IMG/VR virus record: IMGVR_UViG_3300020583_000007
Coordinates: 1-38,804 of that record
Strand: one strand, 5' to 3'
Origin: a virus
DNA: 38,804 bases
Part shown: one piece after another, positions 10,014 through 36,821 of the stretch
Layout of the letters: every line of letters starts with the position of its first letter
Position numbering within the stretch: the stretch's first letter is position 1
Made by a program: the position numbers and the translations under genes
Notes under the pieces: generated by a model
Databases searched by the model: none
What the model was told of the DNA's origin: nothing
Seen by the model: only the letters and a program-made list of their open reading frames with translations

Positions 10014-10035
10014 AATCATCAAAAACAAAAACGCT

Positions 10036-10393: not shown

Positions 10394-10419
10394 AAACACG
10401 TAACCAACAAAAACGCTAT

Positions 10420-18065: not shown

Positions 18066-18380
18066 ATGTTATTAACGCAAAATGAGGATATGATTTTTGA
18101 CAGAGTGACAAATTTTCTCGCTGTATTTTTCGGGATTCTATTCAGTTTACACATGGTTTCCTCCGGAAATTCCCCTTTTCAACATCATATTTTTATAAAT
18201 CAGTTGCAGACTCCTTATATACATCATCCGTTTATGACTGATTTAACCGTTTACTTTTTTCATTGTGTGATTGCTGCATGTACAACGCTGGTAATAAAAG
18301 TATATGGGACCAAAGGACTCATTAAGCTGAAGAAGTGGAAAAAAAGTAAATCGGCTCCCAAACATCCCCGCACCAAATGA
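18066..18380 (+). CDS. Two-helix membrane protein, possible holin
   Basis: A 104-residue product. Hydrophobic segments at about residues 13-34 and 60-80 flank a His-rich loop, and the C-terminal tail is strongly basic (KLKKWKKSKSAPKHPRTK). Two helices with a basic tail is a holin-like plan, and the endolysin is the divergent neighbour, but virion membrane proteins look similar. Overlaps the next gene by four bases (ATGA). Confidence 0.6.
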   Translation: MLLTQNEDMIFDRVTNFLAVFFGILFSLHMVSSGNSPFQHHIFINQLQTPYIHHPFMTDLTVYFFHCVIAACTTLVIKVYGTKGLIKLKKWKKSKSAPKHPRTK

Positions 18381-21103
18381 GCGAATCCTCAACATACCAA
18401 ATTCAGCGTTTAGGACTTGTCGCAACAAGCGAGAGGAAGCTTAAACCTGGAACGGAGTATGATAAACTTTTCCCTAAGCCAAATCTGAAAGATAAAATTG
18501 TCAATTCCAATGGGACGGTCTATAAAACCGTTGTCGAGATGGAAAAGATAGTTGATGAAACTCTCGATCAGACAGCGAAGATTGCTCCTTTATTGAAAGA
18601 TAAGGACCTGGGAACTACTTGCCGGAAGATCTGGAATTTCATTTATGATCATATTCAGTATGTTCCGGATGAGGATGGACTTGAACAGCTCCGTGAACCG
18701 GCCCGACTCTGGTATGATCGTAAAACAGGAGGAGATTGCGATTGCATGGCAATCATGGGAAGCTCTATCCTCTCGAATTTAAAGATTGATCATAAGCTCC
18801 GCATTACTGCTTACTCCGGAGGATGGCAGCATGTTTATATTACTGTCCCTCTTCCAAACCGTCCCGAAGAATTTTTCATCATTGATTGCGTAGTTGATAA
18901 ATTCAACTATGAGAAACCTTACTCCAGAAAATTCGATCATAAAATGGAAGCAAATACTTCATTAGCAGGAATTCCCATCGCACGTTTGAGCGGTGTTCAA
19001 AATTCGACTATCAATAATTTTGATGACGTTAAGAAAGTTCTCTCCGGATGTCATTTTGATAAAATGGATGCCGGCATTGATAACATGGCCGATGCAAACG
19101 GAAATTTAAGAGGTCCGGACCCTCTGAATGATTCTCCTCTTATGCAAGCGATTTATCAGCATTTACTTCAGACCAGGGAAGCAGCTTCGAAGAATCCGGA
19201 ATCGCTTTCAGTTGTTGGAGGAGCAGAGAATCATTTGAAGATGCTCGATTATGCTATTAAGGCATGGAATACTCCAAACCGTCAAAAAGCACTCGATGCC
19301 CTGGAAGCTGAAGAAGATCGTTGGAACAAGTCTGAAGGAATCGGATGCGCTGAGGACATGAATGATTATTATGTTCCTGGAATGGGTCCTGCTCATTTCG
19401 AAGCAGGAGCGGAGTATGATGAAGATCCGGAATATCAGGAAGTACTTGCCGGCCTGGGAAGATTCAGCCTTAAAAAGATAGGCCAATCTTTTTTCAAAAC
19501 AGTAAACAACGCTGTCAAAACAGCAGTTACGGTAAATAAAAAAATCATTGCAGCAGCGAATAAAGTGAAAAATTCGGTTGTTGCAGATGTGAAGAAGGTA
19601 GGAAAAGAAATCAGTGCCGGCGCAAAGATCGCTTTGACAAAAGCGAAAGAGTTTGCAAAAAAAGCCGGTGCATTACTGAAGAAATTCCTGATCATGTCAA
19701 ACCCGCTAACTCTTTTGATGCGGATTGGTGTACTCCTCTTCATGAAGGAAAATGTATTTTACATCGCTCAGAAATTGCTTCCTGCTCTTCTTACTGAAGC
19801 TGAAGCTCTGAAGAAAGGTGTACCTCATGATCTTTGGATGAAATCAAAAAATGCTCTGGATAAAGTTGCCGGCATTTTTGAGGACATTGGAGGAAAACGC
19901 GGAAAGCTGGAGAATGCAATTAAGACAGGACGGGCCAGCAGAAAGGCAAGTCTTGCCGGTATTGATTCCCTGGGCGAACCTTACACGGTTGCAACGACAA
20001 TCATTGCAGCAGCTGGAGTTCTTCTGAAGATGATTTCTTTGATTAATTCAGCCGGTCTTTCAAACAAAGATTATCATGCAGCAACGCAAGCTCATCGTGT
20101 TAGACGCAGACGCATAGTTGTCGCGCCTCCTCAAGCTCCAGTTGATGACTCGGGAGCGACAACAAACGGACTTGGTGATGATACCTCTGATGCAGGGACA
20201 GATGCGGGAACTGATTCCGGGACTGATTCCGGGACTGACTCCGGAACAGATACTTCAACCGATACAAGCGAAGCAACGGGAGATGGATCAGATGTTGCGG
20301 ATAACGTGCCGGCAGATGAAACCAAACACAAGGGATTTTTAGCCCGGATGTGGGCTGCTATCAAGAAATTTTTCACTCGTCACAAAGCAGAGACTCCAAT
20401 CACTGATGTTCAATCAATGGTTAAGAAAGAGCAGGGAGATTCTTCAACGATGGCTGCTCATGATGCTGCAAAATCTGCTGCTCTCGATGCAAAGAATGCA
20501 GCTGATGCAGCTGCAACTCAGGCTGAAGCTGATTCAGCTGCTGATACCAGCGATCTTGATAAGCTTTCAAAGGCAAGCGAATTAAGAGAAGCAGCTACAA
20601 AGGCAGATGATGATTATACAAAGATCGCTGATGTTGCGGATAAAGTTGATGCAGCGAATGCAGCCGGTGATTTGGCTGATCAGACTCCGGATGATCCAAC
20701 TCTTAAAGCTCGTGCTGATCAATTGACAAATGCAGCTGATACAGCGAACTCCCTTTTAAAATCTTTCGGATTAGATCCGATCAATCTTTCAAGTGAAGAA
20801 AAAGCTGGAGGAAATGTTGCGAAGAAAAAAGAACCTGAGGGAGGAGTTTTTCAGGATCTCGGAAAATTCATCGTTGATAATCCCGGAACATCTGTATTGC
20901 TCGGAATAACTGCAACAGCTGCTATTATTCTTGCATTCCCCGGTCCGAGAAAAGCGGTTGTTGATTTCTTGACTCCAGGAAAAAAACAAGCTCGTCTCAA
21001 TGGAACAGGATGCATTCAGCAACTCGATGGACCTAAGAAACGCAAAAAAAGGAAAACCAATTTTTCCGGACATAAGAAAGTCCGCAAAGTGGCATTAAAA
21101 TAA
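18377..21103 (+). CDS. Large transglutaminase-like, membrane-anchored late protein
   Basis: A 908-residue protein. Residues about 60-190 resemble the transglutaminase-like cysteine-protease fold: GGDCDCMA with Cys121, QHVYI with His152 and IIDCVVDKF with Asp170 form a plausible triad. Residues 365-435 are amphipathic and Ala/Lys-rich, followed by hydrophobic segments (about 440-475 and 540-560). A tetrapeptide repeat [AS]GTD occupies residues 606-629, then an Ala/Asp-rich helical stretch (680-800), a membrane helix (about 845-865) and a basic C-terminus. First large gene of the late block. It could mature or cross-link virion proteins, or be an entry protein. The domain call is moderate, the role inferred. 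Confidence 0.6.
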   Translation: MSESSTYQIQRLGLVATSERKLKPGTEYDKLFPKPNLKDKIVNSNGTVYKTVVEMEKIVDETLDQTAKIAPLLKDKDLGTTCRKIWNFIYDHIQYVPDEDGLEQLREPARLWYDRKTGGDCDCMAIMGSSILSNLKIDHKLRITAYSGGWQHVYITVPLPNRPEEFFIIDCVVDKFNYEKPYSRKFDHKMEANTSLAGIPIARLSGVQNSTINNFDDVKKVLSGCHFDKMDAGIDNMADANGNLRGPDPLNDSPLMQAIYQHLLQTREAASKNPESLSVVGGAENHLKMLDYAIKAWNTPNRQKALDALEAEEDRWNKSEGIGCAEDMNDYYVPGMGPAHFEAGAEYDEDPEYQEVLAGLGRFSLKKIGQSFFKTVNNAVKTAVTVNKKIIAAANKVKNSVVADVKKVGKEISAGAKIALTKAKEFAKKAGALLKKFLIMSNPLTLLMRIGVLLFMKENVFYIAQKLLPALLTEAEALKKGVPHDLWMKSKNALDKVAGIFEDIGGKRGKLENAIKTGRASRKASLAGIDSLGEPYTVATTIIAAAGVLLKMISLINSAGLSNKDYHAATQAHRVRRRRIVVAPPQAPVDDSGATTNGLGDDTSDAGTDAGTDSGTDSGTDSGTDTSTDTSEATGDGSDVADNVPADETKHKGFLARMWAAIKKFFTRHKAETPITDVQSMVKKEQGDSSTMAAHDAAKSAALDAKNAADAAATQAEADSAADTSDLDKLSKASELREAATKADDDYTKIADVADKVDAANAAGDLADQTPDDPTLKARADQLTNAADTANSLLKSFGLDPINLSSEEKAGGNVAKKKEPEGGVFQDLGKFIVDNPGTSVLLGITATAAIILAFPGPRKAVVDFLTPGKKQARLNGTGCIQQLDGPKKRKKRKTNFSGHKKVRKVALK
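20192..20263 (+). repeat. In-frame 12-bp tandem repeats encoding [AS]GTD
   Basis: About six copies of a 12-bp unit close to GGGACTGATTCC encode AGTD, AGTD, SGTD (three times) and TSTD within the 908-residue late protein. The two to three central copies are nearly identical, so copy number can vary by slippage. The encoded region is an acidic flexible linker. Confidence 0.75.
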
Positions 21104-21143
21104 TTCACAGTTTTCAATTAATCAAATCAAAAACAACAAACAA

Positions 21144-21770
21144 ATGTCAACAAAACCCAAACCACACAAGACCAAAAAGGCCAAAAAGAAAGGCAAGAAA
21201 GGTCTGGCAGGAGCTGAAAAGATGGCTGCTGTTAAAGCCGGAATGAGTGGCGAAGTTACCAGACCCATTGGTGCAGTATTGGGTTTGATTTCAGCTTCCG
21301 CTCTCGGATACGGACTCGACATGATTCCTGGAATGCAGGTCGATGAAACTAATGCAGCATTCCAGCCTCTCACACTTGTTAAACCAGCCCTCATGCTCGG
21401 AGCAGGAGTAGGTTTGATTTATGCCACGCATGGCGATAAATCAGCCGGCGCATCATTCGTAAACGGCCTCGGTTGGGGTATGGGATTCGGCGGTGCTGTC
21501 AGCGGTTTTAAAGTCTTCGTTAAAAAAGACATTTTTGCCGGCCTGGGAGCAGCAGATGATGAAGTAAGTAAGCAAATTGCCGAACACAAAAAGGCTGCTG
21601 ATTATTACCAGAACAAAGCCAACGATCTCTCGAAGATGATCGAAAAAAACAAGTTCAAAATTGAACTCCCTGCTCTGGAAGAGCGTCCTAATTCCGAAAA
21701 TGCATTCAAAGGAACAGGCGCAACAGAACACACGAGCGCAATGAATTTGAACGCAGCTGATTACGTTTAG
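21144..21770 (+). CDS. Glycine-rich membrane protein, probable virion membrane component
   Basis: A 208-residue product. The N-terminus is extremely Lys-rich (residues 4-24), followed by Gly/Ala-rich hydrophobic segments (about 40-60, 80-97 and 104-125), then a helical charged region (140-170) and a polar tail. A basic N-terminus beside small-residue membrane helices fits a protein that lines a virion membrane and touches DNA. It lies directly before the candidate capsid gene. Family not recognised. Confidence 0.55.
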   Translation: MSTKPKPHKTKKAKKKGKKGLAGAEKMAAVKAGMSGEVTRPIGAVLGLISASALGYGLDMIPGMQVDETNAAFQPLTLVKPALMLGAGVGLIYATHGDKSAGASFVNGLGWGMGFGGAVSGFKVFVKKDIFAGLGAADDEVSKQIAEHKKAADYYQNKANDLSKMIEKNKFKIELPALEERPNSENAFKGTGATEHTSAMNLNAADYV

Positions 21771-21840
21771 TCAATTGCAAAGAGTGTAAACCAAGCAACA
21801 ATTCACAAATTAATCAATTAAATTTTTAATCAAAATCAAA

Positions 21841-22566
21841 ATGGATCAGAACACACAATCGTTACTGCGTGATGCAGATGCCCTGATGGGAATCGGATAC
21901 GCAGACATTACCAAGACAGAAAATCTGCTTGGACAGATCATGTCTCTTCCGACAACCGGAGAGCAGACCGCAGCATTCCAACAGGTTCTGCGTAAGGGAC
22001 AGCCCCATATTGCTCCTTCCGGAGGTCACACAGGACGCGATAAAGCAGCAATGCGTATCGGAATGCTTCCTCCTGACATTCAGAAAGGATTGACTGAAAA
22101 ACGTTTGCAGCTTGTAGATTCCTTTTACTATGCAGTAAAAGTTGCTAACGCTGTAAACTCAGTTCGTATGCTGCTTAACACAGATACAAAAGCTCCCGGA
22201 GTTGGAAACATCGCTTTCCAGAAATTCGATAAAGATCAGTGGTTCCTTTGCACACATATCGGACTTACCTCCGGTGTTGATGCATCTTCCCTGAATGCTT
22301 CTTTCGGAGTTATTCCGATTGCCGTATCCAACGGTGATTTCGAATTCAAAGCAAACGGTAAATATTTGATGCCAAAAGATACCTCCCTGGCTATCTTCAA
22401 CACAACAAACCGTACTGATGTAGACCAGGGTGTGTATGAACTCGATTCACCAAAATGGATCGAACCACAGATTGATATTATCATGGACCTGCGTTTCTCC
22501 GAGAACACAGTTGCCAACACCAATCTGAAGTTCCTCATGATCGGACAAACAGTTCAGCCGTACTAA
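21841..22566 (+). CDS. Candidate major capsid protein
   Basis: A 241-residue soluble protein: a helical N-terminal third (residues 1-105) followed by beta-rich sequence (GNIAFQKFDKDQWFLCTHIG, FGVIPIAVSNGDFEFKANGKYL, WIEPQIDIIMDL), no membrane segment and ending QTVQPY. All eight arginines use CGT (seven) or CGC (one), while neighbouring genes use AGA, AGG and CGG often; this suggests selection for high expression. The gene is followed by a structured spacer. Position, length and codon choice fit a single-jelly-roll major capsid protein. I recognise no family motif, so the call is inference. Confidence 0.5.
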   Translation: MDQNTQSLLRDADALMGIGYADITKTENLLGQIMSLPTTGEQTAAFQQVLRKGQPHIAPSGGHTGRDKAAMRIGMLPPDIQKGLTEKRLQLVDSFYYAVKVANAVNSVRMLLNTDTKAPGVGNIAFQKFDKDQWFLCTHIGLTSGVDASSLNASFGVIPIAVSNGDFEFKANGKYLMPKDTSLAIFNTTNRTDVDQGVYELDSPKWIEPQIDIIMDLRFSENTVANTNLKFLMIGQTVQPY

Positions 22567-22571
22567 ACGGT

Positions 22572-22668
22572 TTCCCGGAAGCTCCGGAACGGGTTTAATA
22601 GCGTTAATCCCTTTCCGCTTTCGGAAATAGGTCAATTCGCTGGCTGTCTTAGGACAGTCAGCGATAAA
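22572..22668 (+). promoter_or_regulatory. Three hairpins in the spacer after the candidate capsid gene
   Basis: Stem-loops lie at about 22572-22589 (TTCCCGG/CCGGAA with one bulge), 22612-22627 (TTTCCG with CGGAAA, loop CTTT) and 22638-22663 (CGCTGGCTGTC with GACAGTCAGCG, loop TTAG, one G-T pair). The last is followed by ATAAACCTTTTT and may terminate some transcripts. Such structures would favour capsid mRNA over downstream mRNA, or protect its 3' end. Confidence 0.6.
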
Positions 22669-22703
22669 CCTTTTTACAAACAATACCAAATCCAAAAAAA
22701 TTC

Positions 22704-23111
22704 ATGGATACTCCAAAAGTAAATTCAACCCTCCGGTTTACAAAATACCAGATCTTCCCTATTGTTATTGCAGGGGCAGGACAAGCAACATCTCTTCAGA
22801 ACGCAACAACCGATCGCAATTATCAAAAGGTAAAAGGCATTGGTATTACTTGTTCTGATCAGTTCGCAGAAACAAATGCCATATTTACGAAATTCGAAGT
22901 TAACCGGAGAGAGATTTACCCTAATGGCTGGGAAATCAAAATGAATACAACCGGCCAGGATGTAGGCGTAAATGATCGCTATGATGAACGGGTTGATGAA
23001 GATGCAGCCAATTCAGTAGTTGATGTGACTGTCCAGGACAAGAGCGCAGCCGGCACAGTTTATCCTTATACCGTAAACGTTTACTTATTACTTGAAACTC
23101 CTCTCAGTTAA
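22704..23111 (+). CDS. Beta-rich structural protein, related to the next gene product
   Basis: A 135-residue protein, mostly predicted strands. It shares a plan with the 228-residue protein at 23152: an opening KYxxFxI-type strand with a Gly-Gln turn, a central VxGI-type strand, a Pro/Gly/Arg-rich middle and a terminal YTVNVYLLLE strand aligning with MTVKVYLRG. This suggests two paralogous jelly-roll-type minor capsid or penton proteins. Inference from pattern and context only. Confidence 0.5.
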   Translation: MDTPKVNSTLRFTKYQIFPIVIAGAGQATSLQNATTDRNYQKVKGIGITCSDQFAETNAIFTKFEVNRREIYPNGWEIKMNTTGQDVGVNDRYDERVDEDAANSVVDVTVQDKSAAGTVYPYTVNVYLLLETPLS

Positions 23112-23151
23112 TAGTTTGATTTTTTAATTGTATTAATTTAAAAATCACGCT

Positions 23152-23838
23152 ATGAAAACGAGAACGAGAGTAAAGTATTTAGTTATTGATATACCCGTTC
23201 CCGCTCAGGGAACGGGCCAACCCATTAAATTCAGTCAGAAGATTGATGAGGATCTTTTGATAGTTGATGGATATTCCGTTACTGAAGAATCTCCTCCTCA
23301 GGGAACATTGAATTATAATACTCCGGTTGGAGGGCCATTCGCTCCGGGAACAGTAATTACAGGAGTTACCAGCGGAGCAACTGCAATCGTTATTCTGGAT
23401 CATGTTCCCGGATTCGATATTTACGCTACCTCCGGAACGTTTCAGATTGGTGAAACGATCAATGGAGCAATAGGCCAGACCGCAATAGTAAGTGCCCCCG
23501 GAATGAGACTCATCAATCCAGTTGCTCCAGCTCCAATTGGAAGATTATCCTTATCCTTTAATAGCAAAGCTTCAAATCCTATCTTGATGACGGTATTCAC
23601 CGATAATCCGAGAAGGAAAAAAAGAGGTTACACTTTCGGAAGATTGATCGAACCTGTTAAAGGAGGAACGTATTTCGAAGGCTATTACATTGATCAGCGT
23701 CCCATCATTGGAGTTGCAGTTCCCATGACTGTTAAGGTATATCTCCGAGGAGTACAGGAAGTTGCTGAAACAATTATCGAGGAAGAGAAGAAAGAAGTAT
23801 CTCCTGAAGAAACTCCGGAAGAAAAAACAGAAGCTTAA
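23152..23838 (+). CDS. Beta-rich structural protein with an inserted GETI-type repeat domain
   Basis: A 228-residue protein. It has the same start and end as the 135-residue protein before it, but residues about 55-110 carry an insertion (APGTVITGVTSGATAIV, then GTFQIGETINGAIGQTAIV) of a kind common in phage fibres and decoration proteins. The C-terminal 25 residues are acidic (EEEKKEVSPEETPEEK). ATCACGCTATG sets the start. Possible penton or spike-base protein. Inference. Confidence 0.5.
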   Translation: MKTRTRVKYLVIDIPVPAQGTGQPIKFSQKIDEDLLIVDGYSVTEESPPQGTLNYNTPVGGPFAPGTVITGVTSGATAIVILDHVPGFDIYATSGTFQIGETINGAIGQTAIVSAPGMRLINPVAPAPIGRLSLSFNSKASNPILMTVFTDNPRRKKRGYTFGRLIEPVKGGTYFEGYYIDQRPIIGVAVPMTVKVYLRGVQEVAETIIEEEKKEVSPEETPEEKTEA

Positions 23839-23848
23839 ACATTGAACG

Positions 23849-24349
23849 ATGAACGATAAATTTCTAATGGATTTTATTGCCCTTCGAATGAAGGAGATGG
23901 ACTTTGAAAATTATACTTTCAAACCATTGATCGTTAATGTCCCCGTTGTTTCTGGAAATCCATTTTTGCAAATCAATATTCAGAACGAATATTATTACCT
24001 GGTTTCAAAAACAGTTCCCGCAACCTTAGCGATTGTTTCTGATCAGGAATTGCAGAATGCAGATGAATCAGCAGCATTTGCAAATTACAATTACGCCAAT
24101 CAGCGTGAATTTACCGGAAACGTTACGATAAGCGCAACCGGCGCAGCATTCATTTTGGAATTCATGCGTGTTATTCCGCGTATCAAATTGACTCCTCATG
24201 ATGTTGATGTTCTCTCTGAGCAGCAATTGGAAGTGATTGCACACTTCCAGGAAGAAAAGAAAGAACAAAGGGGAAGATACAGCAAGATCTCCAGGCATTT
24301 CAAGCCTATCGCTCATTATTCAAACTCATTCCGCAAGGAAAAACGATAA
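23849..24349 (+). CDS. Hypothetical late protein
   Basis: A 166-residue protein: a beta-rich core (residues 20-115, with VNVPVVSGNPFLQINIQNEYYYL and FTGNVTISATGAAFILEF) and a basic helical C-terminus (KKEQRGRYSKISRHF). Its place among candidate capsid genes suggests a minor virion protein. Family not recognised. Confidence 0.55.
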   Translation: MNDKFLMDFIALRMKEMDFENYTFKPLIVNVPVVSGNPFLQINIQNEYYYLVSKTVPATLAIVSDQELQNADESAAFANYNYANQREFTGNVTISATGAAFILEFMRVIPRIKLTPHDVDVLSEQQLEVIAHFQEEKKEQRGRYSKISRHFKPIAHYSNSFRKEKR

Positions 24350-24406
24350 ACGCAAAATAAAAACTATGCGTTCTCAATTAACAATTAACCTAAATCAAAA
24401 AACGCT

Positions 24407-25528
24407 ATGAAAACACCTGAAGAAATTTACCAGGACTGCCCTGTTCTAAAGCAGATCAAAAAACGTTTAATCGAAAGCGAAGCAATAGCAGCTGCTGAAA
24501 ATGAGAAACGTTCAAAAAAGCCGGTTCCCTCCGGTATGAGAGCATGGAAACAAGTTCCTGCTCAGCATTTCCGAGTCACTCATGTTTTAAGTAAAGGTTC
24601 CTGGGAGAAAGTTGCTTTCTTGCCTCAGCCTGGATCTGCATTTGAGGAAACTCTTATGGAGATCGAAACGCAATATGAACCCGATGCTCTGAAGATTGAA
24701 ATTTATGGAGGTTCAAAAATTACGAAGAATGGCAATGAGGATAAACACACTTGCTATTTGAAAAAGGGCCTTGAAAAGACGGAAGAAAAAGAAGAGGGAA
24801 AAGAGAAAGAAAAGACCGATGCCCTGGCCGGAACAATTGATGAGATCAAAAATCAACTTGCATCTCTCACTAAAAGCGGAGAAGGAATTTCCTCTTCAGA
24901 CAGCGGAGCGATGGCTTTGAAGTTTAAGGACCTGGAGCATACTTATGCAATGAGTCAAAAGGAGTTAAAGCATGAGCGGGAACTTGATAAGAAAGATCAG
25001 ATTATTGCGGATCTTACCGATGAGATCAATGATTTAAGACAAGAGATCCTCGATCATGATGCTGAGATCGGAAACGCAGCAGATCTGCTCGAAAAGAAAA
25101 TAGCTCCTAAGCCAATTGAAACCCTTCTCACCGCAGCAATTGAAAAAGCTGCTTTAGGCATTGTTAAAACCTATCCTAAGCTCCTCACAGTTGGTTTCGG
25201 TCTTAATGCTCAGCAGATCGCTGAAATCATGGCAGACGGTCAAAGAAACATTGATTCAGGTACAGCCGGCGATGCTTCTTTCTCTGAAGCTTCCGGAGAA
25301 GAAGAATACAAAGGTTTCGATCCTAAACATGCTGAGGCATTGAAAACCATTCACGCTTTCTGTAAATCACTTTCTTTCAGTGAATATCAGGTTTTATATA
25401 CTCTCCTCACTTTCTTGGTTTCCGATGAATCTAAATTGATCATGAGCAGACTTACAGATCTGATTTATTTCACAGGGAAGATCCTGGAGCGTGAAAAGGA
25501 AGAGGCAGGAAAAACAGAAGCAGTTTAA
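24407..25528 (+). CDS. Coiled-coil late protein with a C-terminal helical module shared with the next gene
   Basis: A 373-residue protein. The N-terminal part (1-115) is mixed, then a Glu/Lys-rich stretch (120-140), a long coiled coil (about 165-225, KKDQIIADLTDEINDLRQEI), a hydrophobic helical region (240-275) and a C-terminal module (about 308-345) where LKTIHAFCKSLSFSEYQVL aligns with MKAITAIMKKLSYSDIQLL in the 60-residue protein at 25562. Probably a virion assembly or scaffolding protein. AAAAAACGCTATG sets the start. Inference. Confidence 0.55.
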   Translation: MKTPEEIYQDCPVLKQIKKRLIESEAIAAAENEKRSKKPVPSGMRAWKQVPAQHFRVTHVLSKGSWEKVAFLPQPGSAFEETLMEIETQYEPDALKIEIYGGSKITKNGNEDKHTCYLKKGLEKTEEKEEGKEKEKTDALAGTIDEIKNQLASLTKSGEGISSSDSGAMALKFKDLEHTYAMSQKELKHERELDKKDQIIADLTDEINDLRQEILDHDAEIGNAADLLEKKIAPKPIETLLTAAIEKAALGIVKTYPKLLTVGFGLNAQQIAEIMADGQRNIDSGTAGDASFSEASGEEEYKGFDPKHAEALKTIHAFCKSLSFSEYQVLYTLLTFLVSDESKLIMSRLTDLIYFTGKILEREKEEAGKTEAV

Positions 25529-25561
25529 GCAATCGAAAAATTAACCATAAAAAATAACGCT

Positions 25562-25744
25562 ATGCCAGTTACAAAAACGTATAATTTAAATATTACTCAG
25601 GATTCAGATGAAAGATGTTTGAATACAATGAAAGCAATCACAGCTATCATGAAGAAACTGAGTTATTCCGATATTCAATTGCTTGCAAAAGCAATCCAGG
25701 AAAAACCTGAATTTATTAATACTGCACGAGCTGCATTAACATAG
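25562..25744 (+). CDS. Sixty-residue protein homologous to the C-terminus of the previous one
   Basis: Its residues 23-55 match the C-terminal helical module of the 373-residue protein at 24407. A free-standing copy next to the fused copy suggests that the two bind each other or the same partner. AAATAACGCTATG sets the start. Family not recognised. Confidence 0.6.
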   Translation: MPVTKTYNLNITQDSDERCLNTMKAITAIMKKLSYSDIQLLAKAIQEKPEFINTARAALT

Positions 25745-25750
25745 AAAAAT

Positions 25751-26650
25751 ATGGAAGAGCTTCAGCATGAATCCCCGGTAGTTTACAGAGAAGAGAGCCA
25801 CAAATCCGATACCACAATTGGAGATGCGGTTTTGTTTTTGGGATTAGCTGGAGGTCTTATCTGGCTGGGAAAAAACTGGTATGATAATTACACTGCTCAG
25901 CAAGCTTCCGGAAGATTAGGAATCAGTACAGCTGCTCAGGCAGCTTCAACGCTTTGGAGTTGCAAACATTGGTATAGCAATGATTATGATACGCCTATCC
26001 AGGTTGCCAAAGAGCTTGCTGAGCAGAAAATTCCCTTTGCAGACGTTTCCAAAGAATTCGATGCTCAGGGACATGGAAACTTAGAGGATTTTCTTGATTT
26101 TCTCGGAGCAGTAAAGAAAACCGAATTTTTCAATGCATTGAATTTAGGTGATACCACTCCAGGTAAATCCCCTACAAATGCAAAGAATCAATTTGATACG
26201 ACTAAAAACATTGTCGTTGTTTATGCCAATGCTCCAGCCCATATTCGGAAGTCCCCTAAGATTTTAGGATCGAGTGTTCTAAGAGCTGCTGCTTCATCTA
26301 TATTAGATCCTTCTGTCATTTTTAGCGCACTTACGCTTAATACTTCAACAATAAGGACTGATAATATCATTAAAGAAGCAAAGGATATAAAATCAGGTGA
26401 ATTCTTAGGTATCCTTACCGGCAATCATCAGCTCTATACCGGAACGAATTCAACCGGAGGCACTCTTTTTTATGAATTTACCGGAATTGTTTCCGGTCTT
26501 GGAACGAAAAAAATGTGGGTTGCAGCTGAATTTGTTCACTTGGAAAACTTCCAGACTAAAGAAGTTGTAAATACGCTCATGCACAAAGAAATTGATTCGA
26601 ACAATGCGCTAATCGTTACAGCTGATGATTATAATTCAGCTGTTTCTTAA
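25751..26650 (+). CDS. Membrane-anchored late protein
   Basis: A 299-residue protein with a membrane helix near residues 25-43 (DAVLFLGLAGGLIWLGKNW), a helical middle (55-135) and a beta-rich C-terminal domain (145-285; IVVVYANAPAHIRKSP, GEFLGILTGNHQLYTG, KMWVAAEFVHLE) that resembles an SH3-like layout. The acidic N-terminus precedes the helix, so the bulk probably faces one side of a membrane. Likely virion membrane or entry protein. Family not recognised. Confidence 0.55.
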   Translation: MEELQHESPVVYREESHKSDTTIGDAVLFLGLAGGLIWLGKNWYDNYTAQQASGRLGISTAAQAASTLWSCKHWYSNDYDTPIQVAKELAEQKIPFADVSKEFDAQGHGNLEDFLDFLGAVKKTEFFNALNLGDTTPGKSPTNAKNQFDTTKNIVVVYANAPAHIRKSPKILGSSVLRAAASSILDPSVIFSALTLNTSTIRTDNIIKEAKDIKSGEFLGILTGNHQLYTGTNSTGGTLFYEFTGIVSGLGTKKMWVAAEFVHLENFQTKEVVNTLMHKEIDSNNALIVTADDYNSAVS

Positions 26651-26672
26651 TTTTCACCTAAAACAAAAAATC

Positions 26673-27194
26673 ATGTTTTTATCCATTCCTCACAGAGCAT
26701 ATATTTTAAAGAACGATACAGCTGCTTATTCCCTTTTAAATGGGAAATTGGTAAAAGAAAGGAGACTATCTAAAAAGGGAACAATTATTTCCGGAGTGGT
26801 TCAAAATCTGAAGAAAGATCAAAAAGATCCTGATGTACTTTATTTGCATGTTGATCAGAATCTAAAAAATTCAAAAGGTCAGCCTATTAAAGAAGAAATC
26901 CCATTGTATTATAGTCTATCGGATGTTCAATATTATATTCCTTCAGCTCAGTCGAGTCTCCCTCCAGCTCATTTCGCAGATCCTTTGCATACGAAATATG
27001 TTCTTGCAAAGGATTATATTGCAACTAATCCTCTCACTGGCGGTAAGGTTCCTTTTCATGCCGGCATGGTCCTTACAAAAAGAATCCCTAAGAATGCATT
27101 GATGCTCGATGGAGAACAGGCCCTTCATCTGCATGATGATTTTAATATGGGATATGTTTTCCCAACCTCATTAATGAAGCGATTCGGAATTTAA
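26673..27194 (+). CDS. Hypothetical late protein
   Basis: A 173-residue product from ATG 26673 (leader TTCACCTAAAACAAAAAATC). Beta-rich and basic, with YYIPSAQSSLPPAHF in the middle and a C-terminal domain with His and Asp (ALHLHDDFNMGYVF). The frame open from 26625 overlaps the previous gene and is not used. It ends three bases before the transglycosylase gene. Family not recognised. Confidence 0.55.
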   Translation: MFLSIPHRAYILKNDTAAYSLLNGKLVKERRLSKKGTIISGVVQNLKKDQKDPDVLYLHVDQNLKNSKGQPIKEEIPLYYSLSDVQYYIPSAQSSLPPAHFADPLHTKYVLAKDYIATNPLTGGKVPFHAGMVLTKRIPKNALMLDGEQALHLHDDFNMGYVFPTSLMKRFGI

Positions 27195-27197
27195 GCG

Positions 27198-27893
27198 ATG
27201 GTAGATCTGATATATATAAACCTCATCCCGGACCTTTCTGAGCAGTATCTTTTCTCAGAGAAGGTCCGGGACGTTGCTAATAGGTTACAGACGAATCCGG
27301 ATTGGCTTATGCAAGTCATGAAAGCGGAATCTGGCCTAAGTGCGAGTATTCGTAATACTTTTGCTCCTGCAAAAGATATAGACGGAAATGTGGCTTATGC
27401 AACCGGACTTATCCAATTCATGCCTTCAACGGCCAGGGCACTCGGTACAACAACCTGGGATCTCGAAAAAATGTCTCGGGTTGATCAGATGGAATATGTT
27501 TACAAATATCTGAAGCCATACACCGGAAATCTAAAATCCTATTTTGATGTTTATCTGACTGTCTTTTTCCCGGCTGCAATTCCTCATTCAACGGAAGATA
27601 ATTGGGTATTTGAGACAAAAGGATTATCAGCAGAAAAGATTGCTAAGGCCAATCCTACAATGGATATTAATAAGGATGGGAAAATCACAATGGCTGAATT
27701 CAGGCAATATTTACAAAACACTGTAAAGAATCCAACGATTTATGAACGGGTTTTCGGTGCAGCTGTCACGGTAGTTGATACAGCAAAAAAAGCAGTTCAA
27801 ACCGTTGAAGCAAATCCGACTGCTTCAATAGCTGTTGGAATAGGCGTTGCCGGCATAGGAGGTTATTTTGTCTGGAAATATTTCATCAAATAA
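27198..27893 (+). CDS. Lytic transglycosylase with EF-hand and C-terminal membrane anchor
   Basis: A 231-residue product. Residues 20-110 form an SLT-type domain: MKAESGLSAS with catalytic Glu44 and ATGLIQFMPSTARALG (68-83). Residues 156-167 (DINKDGKITMAE) are a textbook EF-hand loop, with D1, N3, D5, G6, I8 and E12 in place, so calcium probably binds. A membrane helix lies at about 208-228, followed by lysine. The order (enzyme, calcium site, linker, C-terminal anchor) suits a virion membrane protein that cuts peptidoglycan during entry, as transglycosylases do in PRD1-like phages. Enzyme call strong; virion location inferred. Confidence 0.88.
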   Translation: MVDLIYINLIPDLSEQYLFSEKVRDVANRLQTNPDWLMQVMKAESGLSASIRNTFAPAKDIDGNVAYATGLIQFMPSTARALGTTTWDLEKMSRVDQMEYVYKYLKPYTGNLKSYFDVYLTVFFPAAIPHSTEDNWVFETKGLSAEKIAKANPTMDINKDGKITMAEFRQYLQNTVKNPTIYERVFGAAVTVVDTAKKAVQTVEANPTASIAVGIGVAGIGGYFVWKYFIK

Positions 27894-27922
27894 ATTAATA
27901 CTCACAAACTAAAAAACAAAAA

Positions 27923-29299
27923 ATGGAAAATACCTATTTAATAAAAGCAGTTGGAGCAATCAGCAGCTCCATTGTAAACCGATCAGATTTTTTCTTTGCC
28001 CTCCGGAGCATGGATCAAACCGGAGTAATTATCATTGACGGTGTTCCCTATGATGTTTCCACGTTGGATACTTCTGAAGGGAACAATGCAGCCAGCGCAA
28101 ACGTGCAGCAGCTTGATTCAATCGTTGCGGATACTTATGTATCTCATGGCCTTGTCACTCCTTATGTATTGACTCCAGGATCTTCCATCGTTATTCAGAT
28201 TAACATTACGAATACAGGTGCAGCGATGACAATTAATCCTGATGGCCTGGGAGCAATTCCTGTTAAAATTAACGGGGCTGATCCGGCTGCAAATACTTTC
28301 ATCGGAGGTCAGACTTATGTGATGAATTACTCCGGAACGGTGTTTACTCCTCCTTCCCCTTCAATCGTACCAAGTTTGATTCCGAAAGATGTGATTGATC
28401 TTTCAACAAATCCTCCTTATCCTCCTTCGAATTTCGGAGATGTTCTCCGTGTTACTGTTGCCGGTAAAATTGGAGGCGGTTCCGGAGTTTCTGCAAACGT
28501 TGATGATCAAATCACTTGCTGGTTTAAAAATACTGGAGGAAGTCAGGCAGCTGTTGGATCTTACTTCACAGTTCAACCTTCAATAACCGATGTAAATGCT
28601 CTTATTGGAGTTGAATCAGCAGCAAGATCAGCAGCCGACATGACTCTTTCCGGAAGAATTTCAGCCCTCGAAGGAGCAGTTGATTTCTCTCAGGGAGGAA
28701 ATTCATTCGGAGCAAATGCAATTCTCGGAACGAATGATAATTTCGATCTTATTTTCAAAACGGACAATACTGAAATTGGCCGTATCCTCAGAGGAGGAAA
28801 TTGGGGAATAGGCACAAATAATCCTCACGGCGCTTTAGATGTTCGTGTATCGCTTGTATCAGATAATTTCGGTATCCTGGGAGGAACTGGAACGGCTTTC
28901 CGTATCAATGATAACTCACTTACCGGAACGCTCGATGGAACAGGATTCGCTTCCGTTATTCAGGGTATCCATCAAATGATCCTCAATGGAAATGATGCCG
29001 GAAACGTTGTCCGTTTAAAAGTTATCGGATCTGCATCCTCCGGAGTAAGCACAATCGAAATCAAGGATACCACAGATACTAATTATTTCATGGCAATCAA
29101 TGATGTCGGAAGAATTGGAATCGGAGTGAAGGCTGCAAATGCTTCATGCATCATTGATATTGTATCCACTTTGGGATTTGGTTTCCCTGCGATGAATACA
29201 ACGACAAAGAATGCAATTCCTTCCCCGCGTGTTGGATGCTCGGTTTATGATACAACCTTGCTTGCGATTTCAACATGGAACGGAACTACCTGGGCTTAA
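27923..29299 (+). CDS. Spike or fibre protein, probable receptor binder
   Basis: A 458-residue beta-rich protein with many Gly, Asn and Thr and no membrane segment. Residues 85-145 contain short strands with GADPAANTFIGGQTYVMNY, like domains in phage fibres, and the middle has a coiled segment (GVESAARSAADMTLSGRISAL). The end, MNTTTKNAIPSPRVGCSVYDTT then STWNGTTWA, is a common terminus of Bacteroidota phage fibre proteins. A terminator follows. It is the best receptor-binding candidate; no tail genes lie nearby. Confidence 0.72.
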   Translation: MENTYLIKAVGAISSSIVNRSDFFFALRSMDQTGVIIIDGVPYDVSTLDTSEGNNAASANVQQLDSIVADTYVSHGLVTPYVLTPGSSIVIQINITNTGAAMTINPDGLGAIPVKINGADPAANTFIGGQTYVMNYSGTVFTPPSPSIVPSLIPKDVIDLSTNPPYPPSNFGDVLRVTVAGKIGGGSGVSANVDDQITCWFKNTGGSQAAVGSYFTVQPSITDVNALIGVESAARSAADMTLSGRISALEGAVDFSQGGNSFGANAILGTNDNFDLIFKTDNTEIGRILRGGNWGIGTNNPHGALDVRVSLVSDNFGILGGTGTAFRINDNSLTGTLDGTGFASVIQGIHQMILNGNDAGNVVRLKVIGSASSGVSTIEIKDTTDTNYFMAINDVGRIGIGVKAANASCIIDIVSTLGFGFPAMNTTTKNAIPSPRVGCSVYDTTLLAISTWNGTTWA

Positions 29300-29313
29300 A
29301 CCCTGAATAAAAC

Positions 29314-29341
29314 ACCCCTGGATTTTTCCAGGGGTATTTCT
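29314..29341 (+). terminator. Intrinsic terminator after the spike gene
   Basis: ACCCCTGG (29314-29321) pairs perfectly with CCAGGGGT (29328-29335), six-base loop, followed by ATTTCTTATC. Confidence 0.78.
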
Positions 29342-29384
29342 TATCTTTATCGCTCAAACAAAACAATCACTTAAAAACAACGCT

Positions 29385-29621
29385 ATGAACAAGAAGGAAA
29401 TTGAGGCAAAAATGCTGGATGTGCTTACAGCAAGAAACAAGGCTGAAGCAGTCGTAAAACAATGCGAAGCTCAGGCAAAGGCACAGCAAAAAATTGCTGA
29501 TACGAATAACGGGGCATATCTTGCCCTGGAGGAAATTTACCGCTCGATGCCGGCTGATGCTCCTGAAGAAACAAAAGCAGAAACAGAGGGTGAAAAAAAG
29601 CCTTTGGAAAAGGTAGATTAA
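29385..29621 (+). CDS. Small coiled-coil protein
   Basis: Seventy-eight residues: an Ala/Lys/Glu-rich helix (residues 2-52) and an acidic disordered tail. The leader TCACTTAAAAACAACGCTATG joins both leader types seen in this element. Family not recognised. Confidence 0.6.
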   Translation: MNKKEIEAKMLDVLTARNKAEAVVKQCEAQAKAQQKIADTNNGAYLALEEIYRSMPADAPEETKAETEGEKKPLEKVD

Positions 29622-29674
29622 TCTCTCAAACGCAACGAACATTTTAAGTAAACAATCTAAAACTCAAAAACAAA

Positions 29675-29950
29675 ATGGACAAAATTGATTATAATGTTTT
29701 CATCAATGGATCAAAGGTGATTCTGAAAAGCTATCATGATTTGATCGCAGTTCTTAAAAAGGATGCGAAAGAAACTGATGCAGAAATTAAGACTGCTCAG
29801 GATCTGGCTGACAGAGTAGGCGAAGGTTATGACATTGTGCCAAACGATGAAACCAAACCTTTTACTTTCCGTTATGGAAAAGGAACAATGATTTCAATTC
29901 CGTTGCCGGTCAGCGCAATTGCAAAGGTCGTTCCCGCAGCTGCAAAATAA
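29675..29950 (+). CDS. Small protein sharing a domain with the protein at 6859-7470
   Basis: A 91-residue alpha/beta protein. FINGSKVILKSYHDLIAVL and KPFTFRYGKGTMISIPLPVSAI match the central domain of the membrane-anchored protein at 6859. Here the domain stands alone. A terminator follows. The domain is unrecognised; two copies in distant operons suggest it works in more than one complex. Confidence 0.65.
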   Translation: MDKIDYNVFINGSKVILKSYHDLIAVLKKDAKETDAEIKTAQDLADRVGEGYDIVPNDETKPFTFRYGKGTMISIPLPVSAIAKVVPAAAK

Positions 29951-29980
29951 GGCTGAATAGATCTTATACTCATTAACCAT

Positions 29981-30017
29981 AAAAGGGCAACTTCTTAAAA
30001 TGTCGTTGCCCTTTTTT
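29981..30017 (+). terminator. Intrinsic terminator
   Basis: AAAAGGGCAAC (29981-29991) pairs with GTTGCCCTTTT (30005-30015), 13-base loop, with a run of six T. The downstream gene at 30035 begins soon after, so it also bounds a new unit. Confidence 0.8.
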
Positions 30018-30034
30018 CACTTAAACTAAAAACA

Positions 30035-30376
30035 ATGAATCAACTGACTCCGATCAATCTTATTCTCTTTGCATGTGGAATCTCTCTCCATTTCCTTATT
30101 TGGCTGATGGATGAAAAGAAGGATAACAAACCCGTCGGCTTTTTGATCTTCCTCTCAAACAACTGGATCAAGATTGCAATTAATCTGATTGCCGGCATTG
30201 CATTGCTTTTGATGTCTGAGGATATGGTTAAGATGCTCGGGTTGTTTCATTCATCATCATCAGTGCCTTTTTATCAATTCAATTCTTTCATGTGCGGATT
30301 CATGCCTTATTTGCTTCTCATGTATATTCAGAAGTTCGTTAAAAAATTCATCGGAGATGATCCGGACAAAAAATAA
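30035..30376 (+). CDS. Three-helix membrane protein, holin candidate
   Basis: A 113-residue product with membrane segments at about residues 7-24, 44-61 and 82-100 and a charged tail ending in DDPDKK. Size and layout fit a holin. Its neighbours are a SET protein, another membrane protein and a spanin-like protein, so a lysis module is plausible. The leader CACTTAAACTAAAAACA supports the start. Not proved. Confidence 0.55.
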   Translation: MNQLTPINLILFACGISLHFLIWLMDEKKDNKPVGFLIFLSNNWIKIAINLIAGIALLLMSEDMVKMLGLFHSSSSVPFYQFNSFMCGFMPYLLLMYIQKFVKKFIGDDPDKK

Positions 30377-30378
30377 TT

Positions 30379-30756
30379 ATGCTGAAAGTTAAAACGTACA
30401 TTGATAAAAGTCCCATTGCCGGCCTGGGATGTTTTGCAGCTGAAGTAATTCCAAAGGGAACAGTAATATGGACCTTCCAGGACGGATTTGATACCGTCAT
30501 TCCTAAAGAGACTTATGAGGGCCTCCCGGAGAGAGCAAAACGATTCATATTGAATTTCTGTTATTTCGATCAGAAGAAACAGAGCTGCATTATGTGCATG
30601 GACAATGCGAAGTATTTTAATCATGCCATTGATCCTAATTGCTCTCATGATGGAGAGGATACCATTGCATCGAGAGACATATTCCCTGGAGAAGAGATCA
30701 CTGAAAATTATTATACATTCGATGCCTGGGCTGATTCAAAATTAATCTGGTCATAA
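30379..30756 (+). CDS. SET-domain protein (lysine methyltransferase-like)
   Basis: A 125-residue product made only of a SET domain: AGLGCFAAEVIPKGTVI (14-30), the SAM-site motif YFNHAIDPNC (79-88, with Asn81-His82) and IFPGEEITENYYTFD (101-115), ending in the catalytic-type Tyr. There is no pre- or post-SET zinc cluster. SET enzymes methylate protein lysines with S-adenosylmethionine. In a phage the target could be a virion, host ribosomal or DNA-binding protein, including the Lys-rich tails encoded here. Starts two bases after the previous gene. Domain call strong; substrate unknown. Confidence 0.85.
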   Translation: MLKVKTYIDKSPIAGLGCFAAEVIPKGTVIWTFQDGFDTVIPKETYEGLPERAKRFILNFCYFDQKKQSCIMCMDNAKYFNHAIDPNCSHDGEDTIASRDIFPGEEITENYYTFDAWADSKLIWS

Positions 30757-30779
30757 TCACAATTCAAAAACGCTAAACA

Positions 30780-31211
30780 ATGAAATCGCAATTAACAGGA
30801 ATTCTTTTAGGTCTTGCAACCGCAATCGGTTGCGTTTTCTATGAAAAGATAGTGACAAGCTTTTCATATCTTTCAATGATGATTCTTTACTTAGTTTTTG
30901 AAATCCCTCTTATTTTAATCATCGGATATTTCGCATTTGGGAACGACATTAAGAATGATTATCAGAAATTCATTTCAGATCCTAAATATTGGTATTGGGT
31001 TGCAATTTGGGCTGCTTCCGGAGTGACTTCAATATGCTGGTTTTATATAACCAAGAAACAAGGCGTTTTAGTAGGATCAATATTTGAAGTAAAATACATT
31101 TTGATCTTATCGCTCATTTATATTTTCTTTGGCGAAAACAAGTTTACAGTTAATACAGGAATAGGAATTATTTTAGCAATGGCAAGTATTTACTTCATCT
31201 CAAAAAAATAA
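30780..31211 (+). CDS. Four-helix DMT/EamA-like membrane protein
   Basis: A 143-residue, very hydrophobic protein with four to five membrane helices, ending GIGIILAMASIYFISKK, as in the half-size EamA or SMR-type units of the drug/metabolite transporter superfamily. Such units act as dimers. A transporter is unusual in the late region of a phage, so it may be a host gene carried along or a gene kept for host benefit. The leader CAAAAACGCTAAACAATG supports the start. Confidence 0.6.
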   Translation: MKSQLTGILLGLATAIGCVFYEKIVTSFSYLSMMILYLVFEIPLILIIGYFAFGNDIKNDYQKFISDPKYWYWVAIWAASGVTSICWFYITKKQGVLVGSIFEVKYILILSLIYIFFGENKFTVNTGIGIILAMASIYFISKK

Positions 31212-31215
31212 CGCT

Positions 31216-31917
31216 ATGAACAAACGTGAACCTTTTTACATTTTAGCAATTCTGATCTTGATAGGAATCCTCTGGAAAGGATGCCAAAGCAAAGATGAAG
31301 TTGTAAACTTATATCGGGCCAGTACTGACAGTTTACATCAGGTCCGGAACAAAGCCGGCCAACAAGTATCTACTATTTCCATTCTCTCCGGATCTATAAA
31401 GGACTTAAAGAGCATCCGGGCCTCAGACAGCTCATCAATCGGAAAGCTTCAGAAGATGGTTGATGATATGACTATTTCAGCAACTTACCTAAGCACTCAG
31501 ACCGGCAATAAGTTTGCTGCTGCAACGGAGAAGATCTTATATGTAAAGGGAGATACAGTTGTCACCCGGAGAGATTCCATCATCTATAAAAATGTGTATC
31601 CGGAGTACCCCGCTGATTACTCAAATAAATGGGAGAAATTTCACATCCTGGCCGGCAAGGATTCAATTCATGTTGAATATAAAGTTTTCAATGAATTTGA
31701 CATAAAGCAGGAATGGCAAAAGCCAGGACTTTTTTCCAGGAAGATTCCAGTTGCAACGATCACCAATTTAAACCCTCATACTGAAACGCTCGATATGAGA
31801 ACATTCACGCTCCAGGAAAACAAAGGAAATCGTATCCGGGACGTTGGCATGGGAGCAGCTGGAGGAGCATTATTGATAGAGGTCCTCCGGATCTTCTTAT
31901 TTCCTAAGATTCATTAA
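31216..31917 (+). CDS. Membrane-anchored spanin-like protein
   Basis: A 233-residue product. The N-terminal membrane helix (residues 7-22, ending KGC) is followed by a long helical region (25-110, heptad-like) and a beta domain (115-195), and the C-terminus carries a Gly/Ala-rich hydrophobic segment (GMGAAGGALLIEVLRIFLF). An N-terminal anchor with a long periplasmic helix is the plan of inner-membrane spanins and of related lysis proteins in Bacteroidota phages. It could equally be a virion membrane protein. AAATAACGCTATG sets the start. Confidence 0.5.
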   Translation: MNKREPFYILAILILIGILWKGCQSKDEVVNLYRASTDSLHQVRNKAGQQVSTISILSGSIKDLKSIRASDSSSIGKLQKMVDDMTISATYLSTQTGNKFAAATEKILYVKGDTVVTRRDSIIYKNVYPEYPADYSNKWEKFHILAGKDSIHVEYKVFNEFDIKQEWQKPGLFSRKIPVATITNLNPHTETLDMRTFTLQENKGNRIRDVGMGAAGGALLIEVLRIFLFPKIH

Positions 31918-31932
31918 TTAATCCTTACGATA

Positions 31933-33567
31933 ATGGCAAAGAAAAAAGTTTCTCGCATTGATCATGATGTTGCCCTGATAAAAAGCTATGTCAATTTAGA
32001 TGGGAAAAAGAAATCGAATCAGCAGATCCGGTCCCTGCTCAGCAGGGTTCAAAAAGCTTTAGTTGAACAGAAGGTTTGTAAATCCTGCATGTATGCAAAA
32101 GAGGTGATGAAGATCCAGGACTCTCTTATCCAGGTTGTAAATTCAAAGGCTCCTTTCCTTCAGATAAGCATCGAGCCGAAAGCCTTAATGCATTATGAAG
32201 ATATTGCAGAACACTACTGCATACTTGTATCGGTTTCCCTATTGAAGCGGTATATCAATTTGTCTTATCAAGTTGATATGATGAGAAGGACTTCAGGAAT
32301 AGAATTTCCAAAGAGATTGATTATGGCCCGAGCTGAGCGACTCCAGGAACATTTTATGAGAGCTTCAGAATTGGGATTTGTTCCAACTTCAGACAAGTAT
32401 CATACTGAGTTTAGACATGCATTTACGGGCCTCAGCCGGTTTGTCTCCGGAAAGACAAAAGAGCTGAGCATTGATCGGGCTGAGCTGCATGGATTTAAAG
32501 AGCTTTGGGCTGGAGCAAAGAATGCAGCCTCCAAAGTATCCAGCGGAGTTAAGAAAGTGACTGAGCGGGCTAAAAAGGCGGTCAAATCGAAGGAATTTCA
32601 AAACATCCTGGATAAGACCAAGAAAGCAGGGAAATTCGTCCGGGAAAATAGCGTGAAAGCTTATAACATCTCAAAAGCAGCTGTTAAAGCTGCAAAAGCC
32701 GAACATGATCGGACTAAATCGGCTGCAAAGAAAAAGGACATTCCAAAGAAAGAAGCAGCAAGCCCGGAGCAAATAGAAAAATTCCGGAACAAGGTTGATG
32801 AGGTGATGGATGAATGGAAAGCCTATAAATTGAAGGATAAGAATGGAAATATAGTTGAAGATAAAAAAGAAGCGATTGCCATTGCTCTTTCTAAAGCGAG
32901 AAAAATGTATGGCAATGTCGGAGGACTCGGGCATTTGAAAAAAGCCCTTGCCTCAGCAGCCGGTTCTTTTGTTGAAAGTATTGTCACGGTTCATTTAAGC
33001 GGTCCAGGAATGAAAGTCGGAGATATTAAGAATCAAAAGTTTGAAAAGATCGGTTTACTCGGGGATTATAAAAAATTGATCGGAGATGCATGTAAACCAA
33101 CTTCGATTTTCATTTATGGAAGAGGCGGTTCCGGAAAGAGTACTTTTTGTTTGCGCCTGAGCGAAGTATTAAACGGCCTCGGGAATAGCATCATGTATGT
33201 TGCAAGTGAGCAATACGGATCTCCAACCTTTTCGGAGCTGCTGAATAGATTGGATCTGAGAGCTGATGATTCTTTTGTTATTGTTCCTTCCCTGGATTCG
33301 GATTCACCGGCAAAATATGATTTCATCGTTTTGGATAGCAAAGATTCATGCGGATTGAAAAACTCTGATCAGTTCGAAGCTCTCAAAAAGAAATATCCTA
33401 AACAATCATTCATTATTACTTCGAAGGGATTGAAGAATGGAGATTTCAAAGGAGATGAAGCCTGGAGGAATAACGTTGATACGATGATTCATTGTCAAAA
33501 AATGGTTGCTGAGGTAAGCGAAGAAAAGAACAGATGGGGAGGGACCGAACCAATGCAGATAAAATAA
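31933..33567 (+). CDS. Fusion protein with C-terminal RecA-like P-loop ATPase
   Basis: A 544-residue protein in three parts. Residues 1-175 are helical with Cys pairs (KVCKSCMYAKEV) and a globular helical domain. Residues 190-270 are Lys/Ala-rich, then about 285-325 match a small DUF6496-like motif (MDEWKAYKLKDKNGNIVEDK, then EAIAIALSKARK). Residues 390-544 are a P-loop domain with Walker A GRGGSGKST (396-404), YVASEQYGS as in RadA-like proteins, Walker B FIVLDS (463-469) and KNRWGG near the end. It could be the packaging motor or a replication or recombination ATPase. Last gene of the late block. The ATPase call is good; the role is open. Confidence 0.7.
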   Translation: MAKKKVSRIDHDVALIKSYVNLDGKKKSNQQIRSLLSRVQKALVEQKVCKSCMYAKEVMKIQDSLIQVVNSKAPFLQISIEPKALMHYEDIAEHYCILVSVSLLKRYINLSYQVDMMRRTSGIEFPKRLIMARAERLQEHFMRASELGFVPTSDKYHTEFRHAFTGLSRFVSGKTKELSIDRAELHGFKELWAGAKNAASKVSSGVKKVTERAKKAVKSKEFQNILDKTKKAGKFVRENSVKAYNISKAAVKAAKAEHDRTKSAAKKKDIPKKEAASPEQIEKFRNKVDEVMDEWKAYKLKDKNGNIVEDKKEAIAIALSKARKMYGNVGGLGHLKKALASAAGSFVESIVTVHLSGPGMKVGDIKNQKFEKIGLLGDYKKLIGDACKPTSIFIYGRGGSGKSTFCLRLSEVLNGLGNSIMYVASEQYGSPTFSELLNRLDLRADDSFVIVPSLDSDSPAKYDFIVLDSKDSCGLKNSDQFEALKKKYPKQSFIITSKGLKNGDFKGDEAWRNNVDTMIHCQKMVAEVSEEKNRWGGTEPMQIK

Positions 33568-36240: not shown

Positions 36241-36256
36241 TTTGCAAGGGGTTTAA
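36238..36256 (-). repeat. Shared 19-base leader, copy 1 (minus strand)
   Basis: Read on the minus strand, TTAAACCCCTTGCAAAATG ends with the start codon of the gene at 36052-36240. Identical copies end at the start codons at 36387 and 36838 on the plus strand; with the first of these it makes a perfect 19-bp inverted repeat. Confidence 0.9.
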
Positions 36257-36269
36257 GACAGATCCGGAT

Positions 36270-36808: not shown

Positions 36809-36821
36809 AGTTCATTATAAC

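Follow-up and report, generated by a model that had tools for sequence, protein, structure and literature searches.

The salt-lake phage SSIP-1 is tailless and membrane-containing, with a T=49 capsid and two capsid protein types (PMC6356626, PMC6260650, PMC4958249), and a 2019 review noted that its genome shares hardly any similarity with GenBank content (PMC6356626). Other tailless phages include P23-77, SH1 and HHIV-2 (Singelaviria, Helvetiavirae), which have capsids of the single-jelly-roll type and small membrane proteins, and the Flavobacterium phage FLiP (Finnlakeviridae), which has a 9.2-kb ssDNA genome and a double jelly-roll capsid protein. The ATPases of known viruses with single or double jelly rolls are of the FtsK/HerA type, with none listed for FLiP (PMC8328091).

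We analysed the 38,804 nucleotides of the IMG/VR virus record IMGVR_UViG_3300020583_000007 (hereafter the window). With a probability of roughly 0.87, we read it as the complete circular genome of a tailless icosahedral Bacteroidota phage, distantly related to SSIP-1, whose late block is the virion module; this reading draws on homology, gene order, predicted folds and the lack of tail genes. An exact 127-bp direct repeat at both ends implies a circle of 38,677 bp. A length of 127 is also a common assembler k-mer overlap, which counts against the repeat as closure evidence; the contig is nevertheless likely to close on itself, as a first-pass annotation of the sequence had proposed. A tRNA scan over the window found none. 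The principal features are listed below; numbers of loci are those recovered for each gene by iterated profile searches.

1-127, no strand: terminal direct repeat, identical to 38678-38804; likely circle closure
7557-9359, plus: ParB-like protein (Pfam ParB_N 3.9e-22), possible episomal maintenance
17354-17899, minus: GH108 endolysin (Pfam Glyco_hydro_108 1.4e-13), homologue of SSIP-1 gp31
18066-18380, plus: small membrane protein; weak counterpart (5e-4) upstream of the cassette of the nearest relative, the G016 element
18377-21103, plus: transglutaminase-like virion protein with a Cys121-His152-Asp170 triad and C-terminal hydrophobic segments; homologue of SSIP-1 gp34
21144-21770, plus: conserved small membrane protein just before the capsid gene; 60 loci; weak SSIP-1 gp44 match (0.0017)
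21841-22566, plus: candidate major capsid protein, helical N-terminus and single jelly roll (residues 88-241); 87 loci
22704-23111, plus: small capsid-type beta sandwich, a candidate for the second capsid protein, conserved beside 21841; 66 loci
23152-23838, plus: paralogue of 22704 with an insertion; 59 loci
23849-24349, plus: small protein conserved in the cassette, probably a component of the vertex or a minor capsid protein; 58 loci
24407-25528, plus: predicted coiled-coil protein, conserved in the cassette
25562-25744, plus: conserved cassette protein of 60 aa; 57 loci
25751-26650, plus: N-terminally membrane-anchored cassette protein; 89 loci, 13-kb genomes too
26667-27194, plus: late protein (a longer reading starts at 26625); no homologue in profile searches of the relatives' loci
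27198-27893, plus: SLT lytic transglycosylase with a C-terminal hydrophobic anchor (Pfam SLT 2.7e-5)
27923-29299, plus: probable spike or receptor-binding fibre, without a Pfam domain; homologues in 7 loci
31216-31917, plus: membrane protein; 2.9e-62 match in the G016 element
31933-33567, plus: late-block N-terminal domain fused to a RecA/KaiC-like P-loop ATPase; homologue of SSIP-1 gp40

The late open reading frames named in the first-pass annotation were found where it had placed them, all on the plus strand. It had also counted several membrane proteins and a membrane-anchored transglycosylase among them, and both observations held: membrane-spanning-like segments were seen in the sequences of eight late products (18066, 18377, 21144, 25751, 29675, 30035, 30780 and 31216), and the transglycosylase combines its SLT domain with a hydrophobic C-terminus. 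A SET-domain (lysine methyltransferase-like) protein also lies inside the late block, at 30379-30756 (Pfam 6e-12).

Homology identifies the window as a distant relative of SSIP-1, the only cultured relative found. When the late proteins were compared with 50,697 phage records by tblastn, SSIP-1 was the sole match, through its structural protein gp34 (8e-4). Three matches were significant within the SSIP-1 proteome, namely 18377 with gp34 (blastp, 1.9e-9), 31933 with the virion ATPase gp40 (8.8e-7 by blastp, 3.7e-5 by phmmer) and 17354 with the endolysin gp31 (direct proteome comparison, 7.5e-10); gp34 and gp40 are annotated as structural proteins. The profile HMMs of these three proteins were built with SSIP-1 included, so that their scores against it are circular and were not used as evidence. 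Both genomes are large circular dsDNA (43.8 kb in SSIP-1, 38.7 kb in the window), both have a run of small structural genes of similar sizes (gp44-gp48 in SSIP-1), and both point to a Bacteroidota/Rhodothermota-type host. In contrast, the capsid proteins lack recognisable sequence homology (21841 gave no significant sequence match with gp45 or gp46; hhalign P 0.037 over 124 columns), gp34 lies apart from the SSIP-1 capsid genes, SSIP-1 has an integrase (gp13) whereas none was recognised in the window, and only in the window does the ATPase carry a fused, additional N-terminal domain. A BFVD fold match of the capsid candidate, I1ZBH9 (211 aa, E 5e-5), has the length of gp46. Since SSIP-1, a large tailless membrane phage of this kind with a 43.8-kb genome, was already known, the initial description of the window as a new and unusually large lineage has to be toned down; a precedent exists, and what is new is the extent of the lineage.

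The product of 21841, one of four candidate proteins for which structure prediction and a fold search had been proposed, was predicted by AlphaFold to consist of a helical N-terminus and one jelly roll (mean pLDDT 87, about 95 in the barrel). Its fold matches in the PDB are mostly viral jelly-roll capsids, including those of PBCV-1 (Z 8.0, 3.7 A over 128 residues), SPV1 (Z 7.8, Foldseek probability 1.00), PR772 (Z 7.0), HHIV-2 (6.8), PRD1 (6.7), P23-77 (6.6) and SH1 (6.2), together with EhV-201 and faustovirus, and the Foldseek list agrees. Z scores of 8 or below are middling and none is decisive singly; the argument lies in the consistency of the match list. Against it, a non-viral jelly roll, the PHM enzyme domain, scores like the viral matches. 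A sequence search of the PDB gave no match. On the predicted fold, the 21841 product is probably the main capsomer subunit. The 22704 product was modelled as a confident beta sandwich (pLDDT 92.5), smaller than the 21841 fold; its best Foldseek matches are small jelly-roll coat proteins, none of them significant alone. Profile searches with either of the 22704 and 23152 families recover the other, which identifies the beta-rich pair noted at first pass as true paralogues at the sequence level. We infer that the capsomers may be built from two major capsid proteins.

In the 18377 product, Cys121, His152 and Asp170 are kept in 165-166 of 170 aligned family rows and also in SSIP-1 gp34, and family members match transglutaminase-like Pfam domains; because of this conserved triad and these matches, the protein is probably an active virion cysteine enzyme, which might act in virion maturation or entry. 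The P-loop ATPase seen at first pass is indeed present, as the C-terminal half of 31933-33567, but its family is not that of the FtsK/HerA packaging enzymes: the ATPases of the window, SSIP-1, the proviruses and the 13-kb relatives match AAA_24/AAA_25/KaiC, and no FtsK/HerA domain was found among them. A packaging role for this RecA/KaiC-like protein is suggested tentatively. The 27198 transglycosylase is 41% identical to the FLiP lytic enzyme. In the phage collection, the best-scoring matches to the window's ATPase (6e-16) and transglycosylase (5e-28) came from a 636-kb uncultured megaphage, LR756504.1, where they sit at two distant places (200516-200995 and 544926-545399).

IMG/VR gave no match when scanned with 21841, 31933 or 18377 as single proteins, and the family was opened only by a profile (A1) built from the transglutaminase-like domain alignment of Persicobacter plasmid homologues. 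In IMG/VR this profile matched 78 contigs, and in a data set with one genome per species it matched 175 loci. The order and strand of the genes from 18377 to 25751 recur in about 80 loci, drawn from Bacteroidota MAGs, isolates, plasmids and IMG/VR contigs. Where both the transglutaminase-like and capsid genes are present they are collinear on one strand (76 of 82 loci); the six others comprise one second hit and five 12-14-kb contigs with the capsid gene upstream, as expected if a circle had been broken there. Each of the 20 genomes or records searched gave a match to the ATPase. Of the 17 bacterial genomes, 11 have a strong match (E about 1e-13 or better) on the strand of the transglutaminase-like gene and 13-21 kb downstream of it; among the other six, G003 has strong matches whose position relative to the cassette is not fixed, and five have weak, unplaced ones. 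The nearest relative, the G016 element of a Bacteroidia MAG, has gene-by-gene counterparts across almost all of the late block (18377, 3.6e-124; 21841, 2.5e-55; 31933, 2.3e-81). The Bacteroidota origin first proposed is upheld by these searches: all closest relatives are Bacteroidota, the 80 kept loci are labelled as such except for three (two without a phylum, one "uncultured proteobacterium"), and the window falls among Bacteroidota copies in the capsid tree. Neither the window's capsid protein nor those of its relatives found an isolate among the 50,697 phage records by tblastn, and no description of this group was found in the open-licence literature searched. The Charybdis elements of a preprint (PMC12324425) were considered and are unrelated 4.6-kb elements.

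Relatives occur in several forms. Two genomes have a tyrosine integrase adjoining a tRNA-Ser(TGA) gene with the cassette downstream; one of these genomes has a 15-bp repeat of the tRNA 3' end at a distance of 44.8 kb, as expected for attL/attR, and for the G007 provirus no attR was found. Five Persicobacter plasmid records carry the cassette in the order and orientation of the window: three plasmids of 47.6-53.2 kb (pPP10, JZB09 Plasmid11 and Plasmid13) and two copies inside much larger replicons (pPP1 and Plasmid3). Plasmid pPP10 has homologues of 18377, 21841, 22704, 24407, 25562, 25751 and 31933, although its ATPase and the N-terminal domain fused to it in the window are separate genes, and the Persicobacter plasmids, unlike the window, carry their own Rep/ParA/ParB. 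At the small end, 20 IMG/VR contigs of 11.6-13.8 kb bear terminal repeats and appear to be complete circles; their cassette is reduced to a transglutaminase-like gene, a membrane protein, a capsid-like gene, a small beta protein, a lysozyme and an AAA_25 ATPase (L018, L022, L026, L033, L042, L043, L049, L051, L053, L055, L059, L061, L062, L065, L071, L075, L077, L081, L085 and L088); against phage isolates, this 13-kb branch matched nothing except SSIP-1 gp34. Because related elements live as proviruses or plasmids, a temperate, plasmid-like stage involving ParB is likely. For the window itself an episomal stage is possible, since the ParB-like gene is present and no integrase was recognised; no ParA was seen beside it. 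The same ParB-like gene and the kinship with pPP10, Plasmid11, Plasmid13 and the integrated copies could instead mean that the window is a plasmid, satellite or transfer agent of viral origin, which has kept a capsid cassette and makes no infectious virions by itself. We consider this improbable, given that the window is a virus record with a full module, lysis genes and fibre included, and that an infectious phage, SSIP-1, is among its relatives.

Membership of Singelaviria/Helvetiavirae in the strict sense, which implies a pair of vertical single-jelly-roll capsid proteins plus a packaging ATPase of the FtsK/HerA family, is a more serious contender, though still unlikely. The window resembles P23-77, SH1 and HHIV-2 in the predicted single-jelly-roll fold of its capsid candidate, with all three among the 21841 matches, in its small membrane proteins and probably in being tailless, and the beta-sandwich protein 22704 would fit as a second capsid protein; however, its capsid proteins show no sequence similarity to theirs, its genome is larger than most of that type, and the ATPase family is AAA_24/AAA_25 in the window as in SSIP-1 and the relatives. 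As no FtsK/HerA domain was found, we would not place the window in Helvetiavirae. A tailed phage of the Caudoviricetes whose head and tail genes have diverged strongly would suit the 38.7-kb genome, a common size for tailed phages, and the SLT enzyme, which resembles tail and baseplate domains (phrog_196 baseplate hub, 2.3e-24). Yet the capsid candidate is a jelly roll, and FLiP and FLiP-2, both tailless, are among the top-ranked phage matches of that same enzyme. Moreover, an HMM search of ORFs of at least 150 aa against Pfam and PHROGs gave no terminase, portal, HK97 capsid, tape measure, tail or baseplate family at a meaningful E-value, the sole exception being the SLT domain, one that baseplate proteins can also contain, and none of the seven ORFs above 300 aa matches terminase, portal, HK97, tape measure or baseplate. 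The first-pass reader had recognised no such genes either, and a tailed phage is very improbable. The kinship of the transglycosylase with that of FLiP, also a tailless phage of a Bacteroidota host, might suggest a larger FLiP-like phage of the Finnlakeviridae, which we find scarcely credible: the capsid candidate has one jelly roll of about 155 residues and not two, no other window protein of suitable size matched a double-jelly-roll capsid, and in tblastn none of the remaining late proteins searched gave a match to FLiP records.

A tailless phage akin to SSIP-1 is thus our preferred reading, and we take it to work like an SSIP-1-type phage. The tailless part of the original proposal of a tailless membrane-containing phage has gained the jelly-roll fold of 21841 and the lack of tail genes; an internal membrane is probably present, judging by analogy with SSIP-1 and by the hydrophobic segments. 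Membrane, capsid geometry, packaging and infection cycle would then fit together as follows. The single jelly roll of 21841 would be the main capsomer subunit of the shell, assisted by the two beta paralogues, 22704 and 23152, and by the small protein 23849, and the shell would lie on a lipid vesicle bearing the small membrane proteins. The 27923 fibre, at the vertices, would bind the host. The anchored transglycosylase and the transglutaminase-like protein would be carried in the particle for cell-wall opening or virion maturation, the RecA/KaiC-like ATPase would package or handle DNA, and the GH108 endolysin would release progeny.

The group is widespread. The capsid gene was present in 8 of 395 genomes drawn evenly from the phylum of one carrier, the Bacteroidota (about 2%, one of the eight being the centre genome itself), which gives SSIP-1, so far alone, kin in that share of sampled Bacteroidota genomes. 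Given this frequency, tailless membrane phages, missed by tail-centred virus surveys, may belong to the ordinary Bacteroidota virome, and related proviruses sat unnoticed in Bacteroidota genomes. We put at even odds the broader proposal of an undescribed high-rank group of tailless jelly-roll Bacteroidota phages, ranging from 13-kb circles to temperate phages and plasmid-prophages of about 45 kb, with SSIP-1 as the only cultured outlier, a conserved cassette with a virion transglutaminase-like cysteine enzyme, and a RecA/KaiC-type instead of an FtsK/HerA packaging ATPase. Cultured carriers include strains of Persicobacter (sp. CCB-QB2 and P. psychrovividus NBRC 101262), Pontibacter, Taibaiella (T. 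soli) and Nafulsella (N. turpanensis), and inducing them could put capsid structure, membrane content and the packaging motor to the test.

Several further observations were made. A patatin-like phospholipase (12953-13858, 3.2e-35) and an acyl carrier protein (392-643) are lipid-metabolism genes, of a probably lipid-containing phage. In the early/middle region, 9472-9945 strongly matches phrog_11227 "protease" (2.7e-48). At least eight imperfect G-rich direct repeats (GGAAAGG...TTTTT with CCTAAGACATTT) span 9403-11507 at a strong GC-skew peak, a candidate replication origin or regulatory region. Long inverted repeats (36228-36257 with 36821-36850, and 36972-37006 with 37317-37351) flank small genes close to the contig junction. 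Finally, a motif in start-codon context, AACGCTATG, has 10 occurrences where 0.14 would be expected (3110, 10030, 15692, 16609, 24401, 25556, 29379 and 31210 on the plus strand; 34465 and 7119 on the minus strand), most of them precisely at gene starts. Variants stand at further gene starts, and the motif is missing from the 15 relatives checked; it is possibly a translation or promoter signal specific to this virus or its host.
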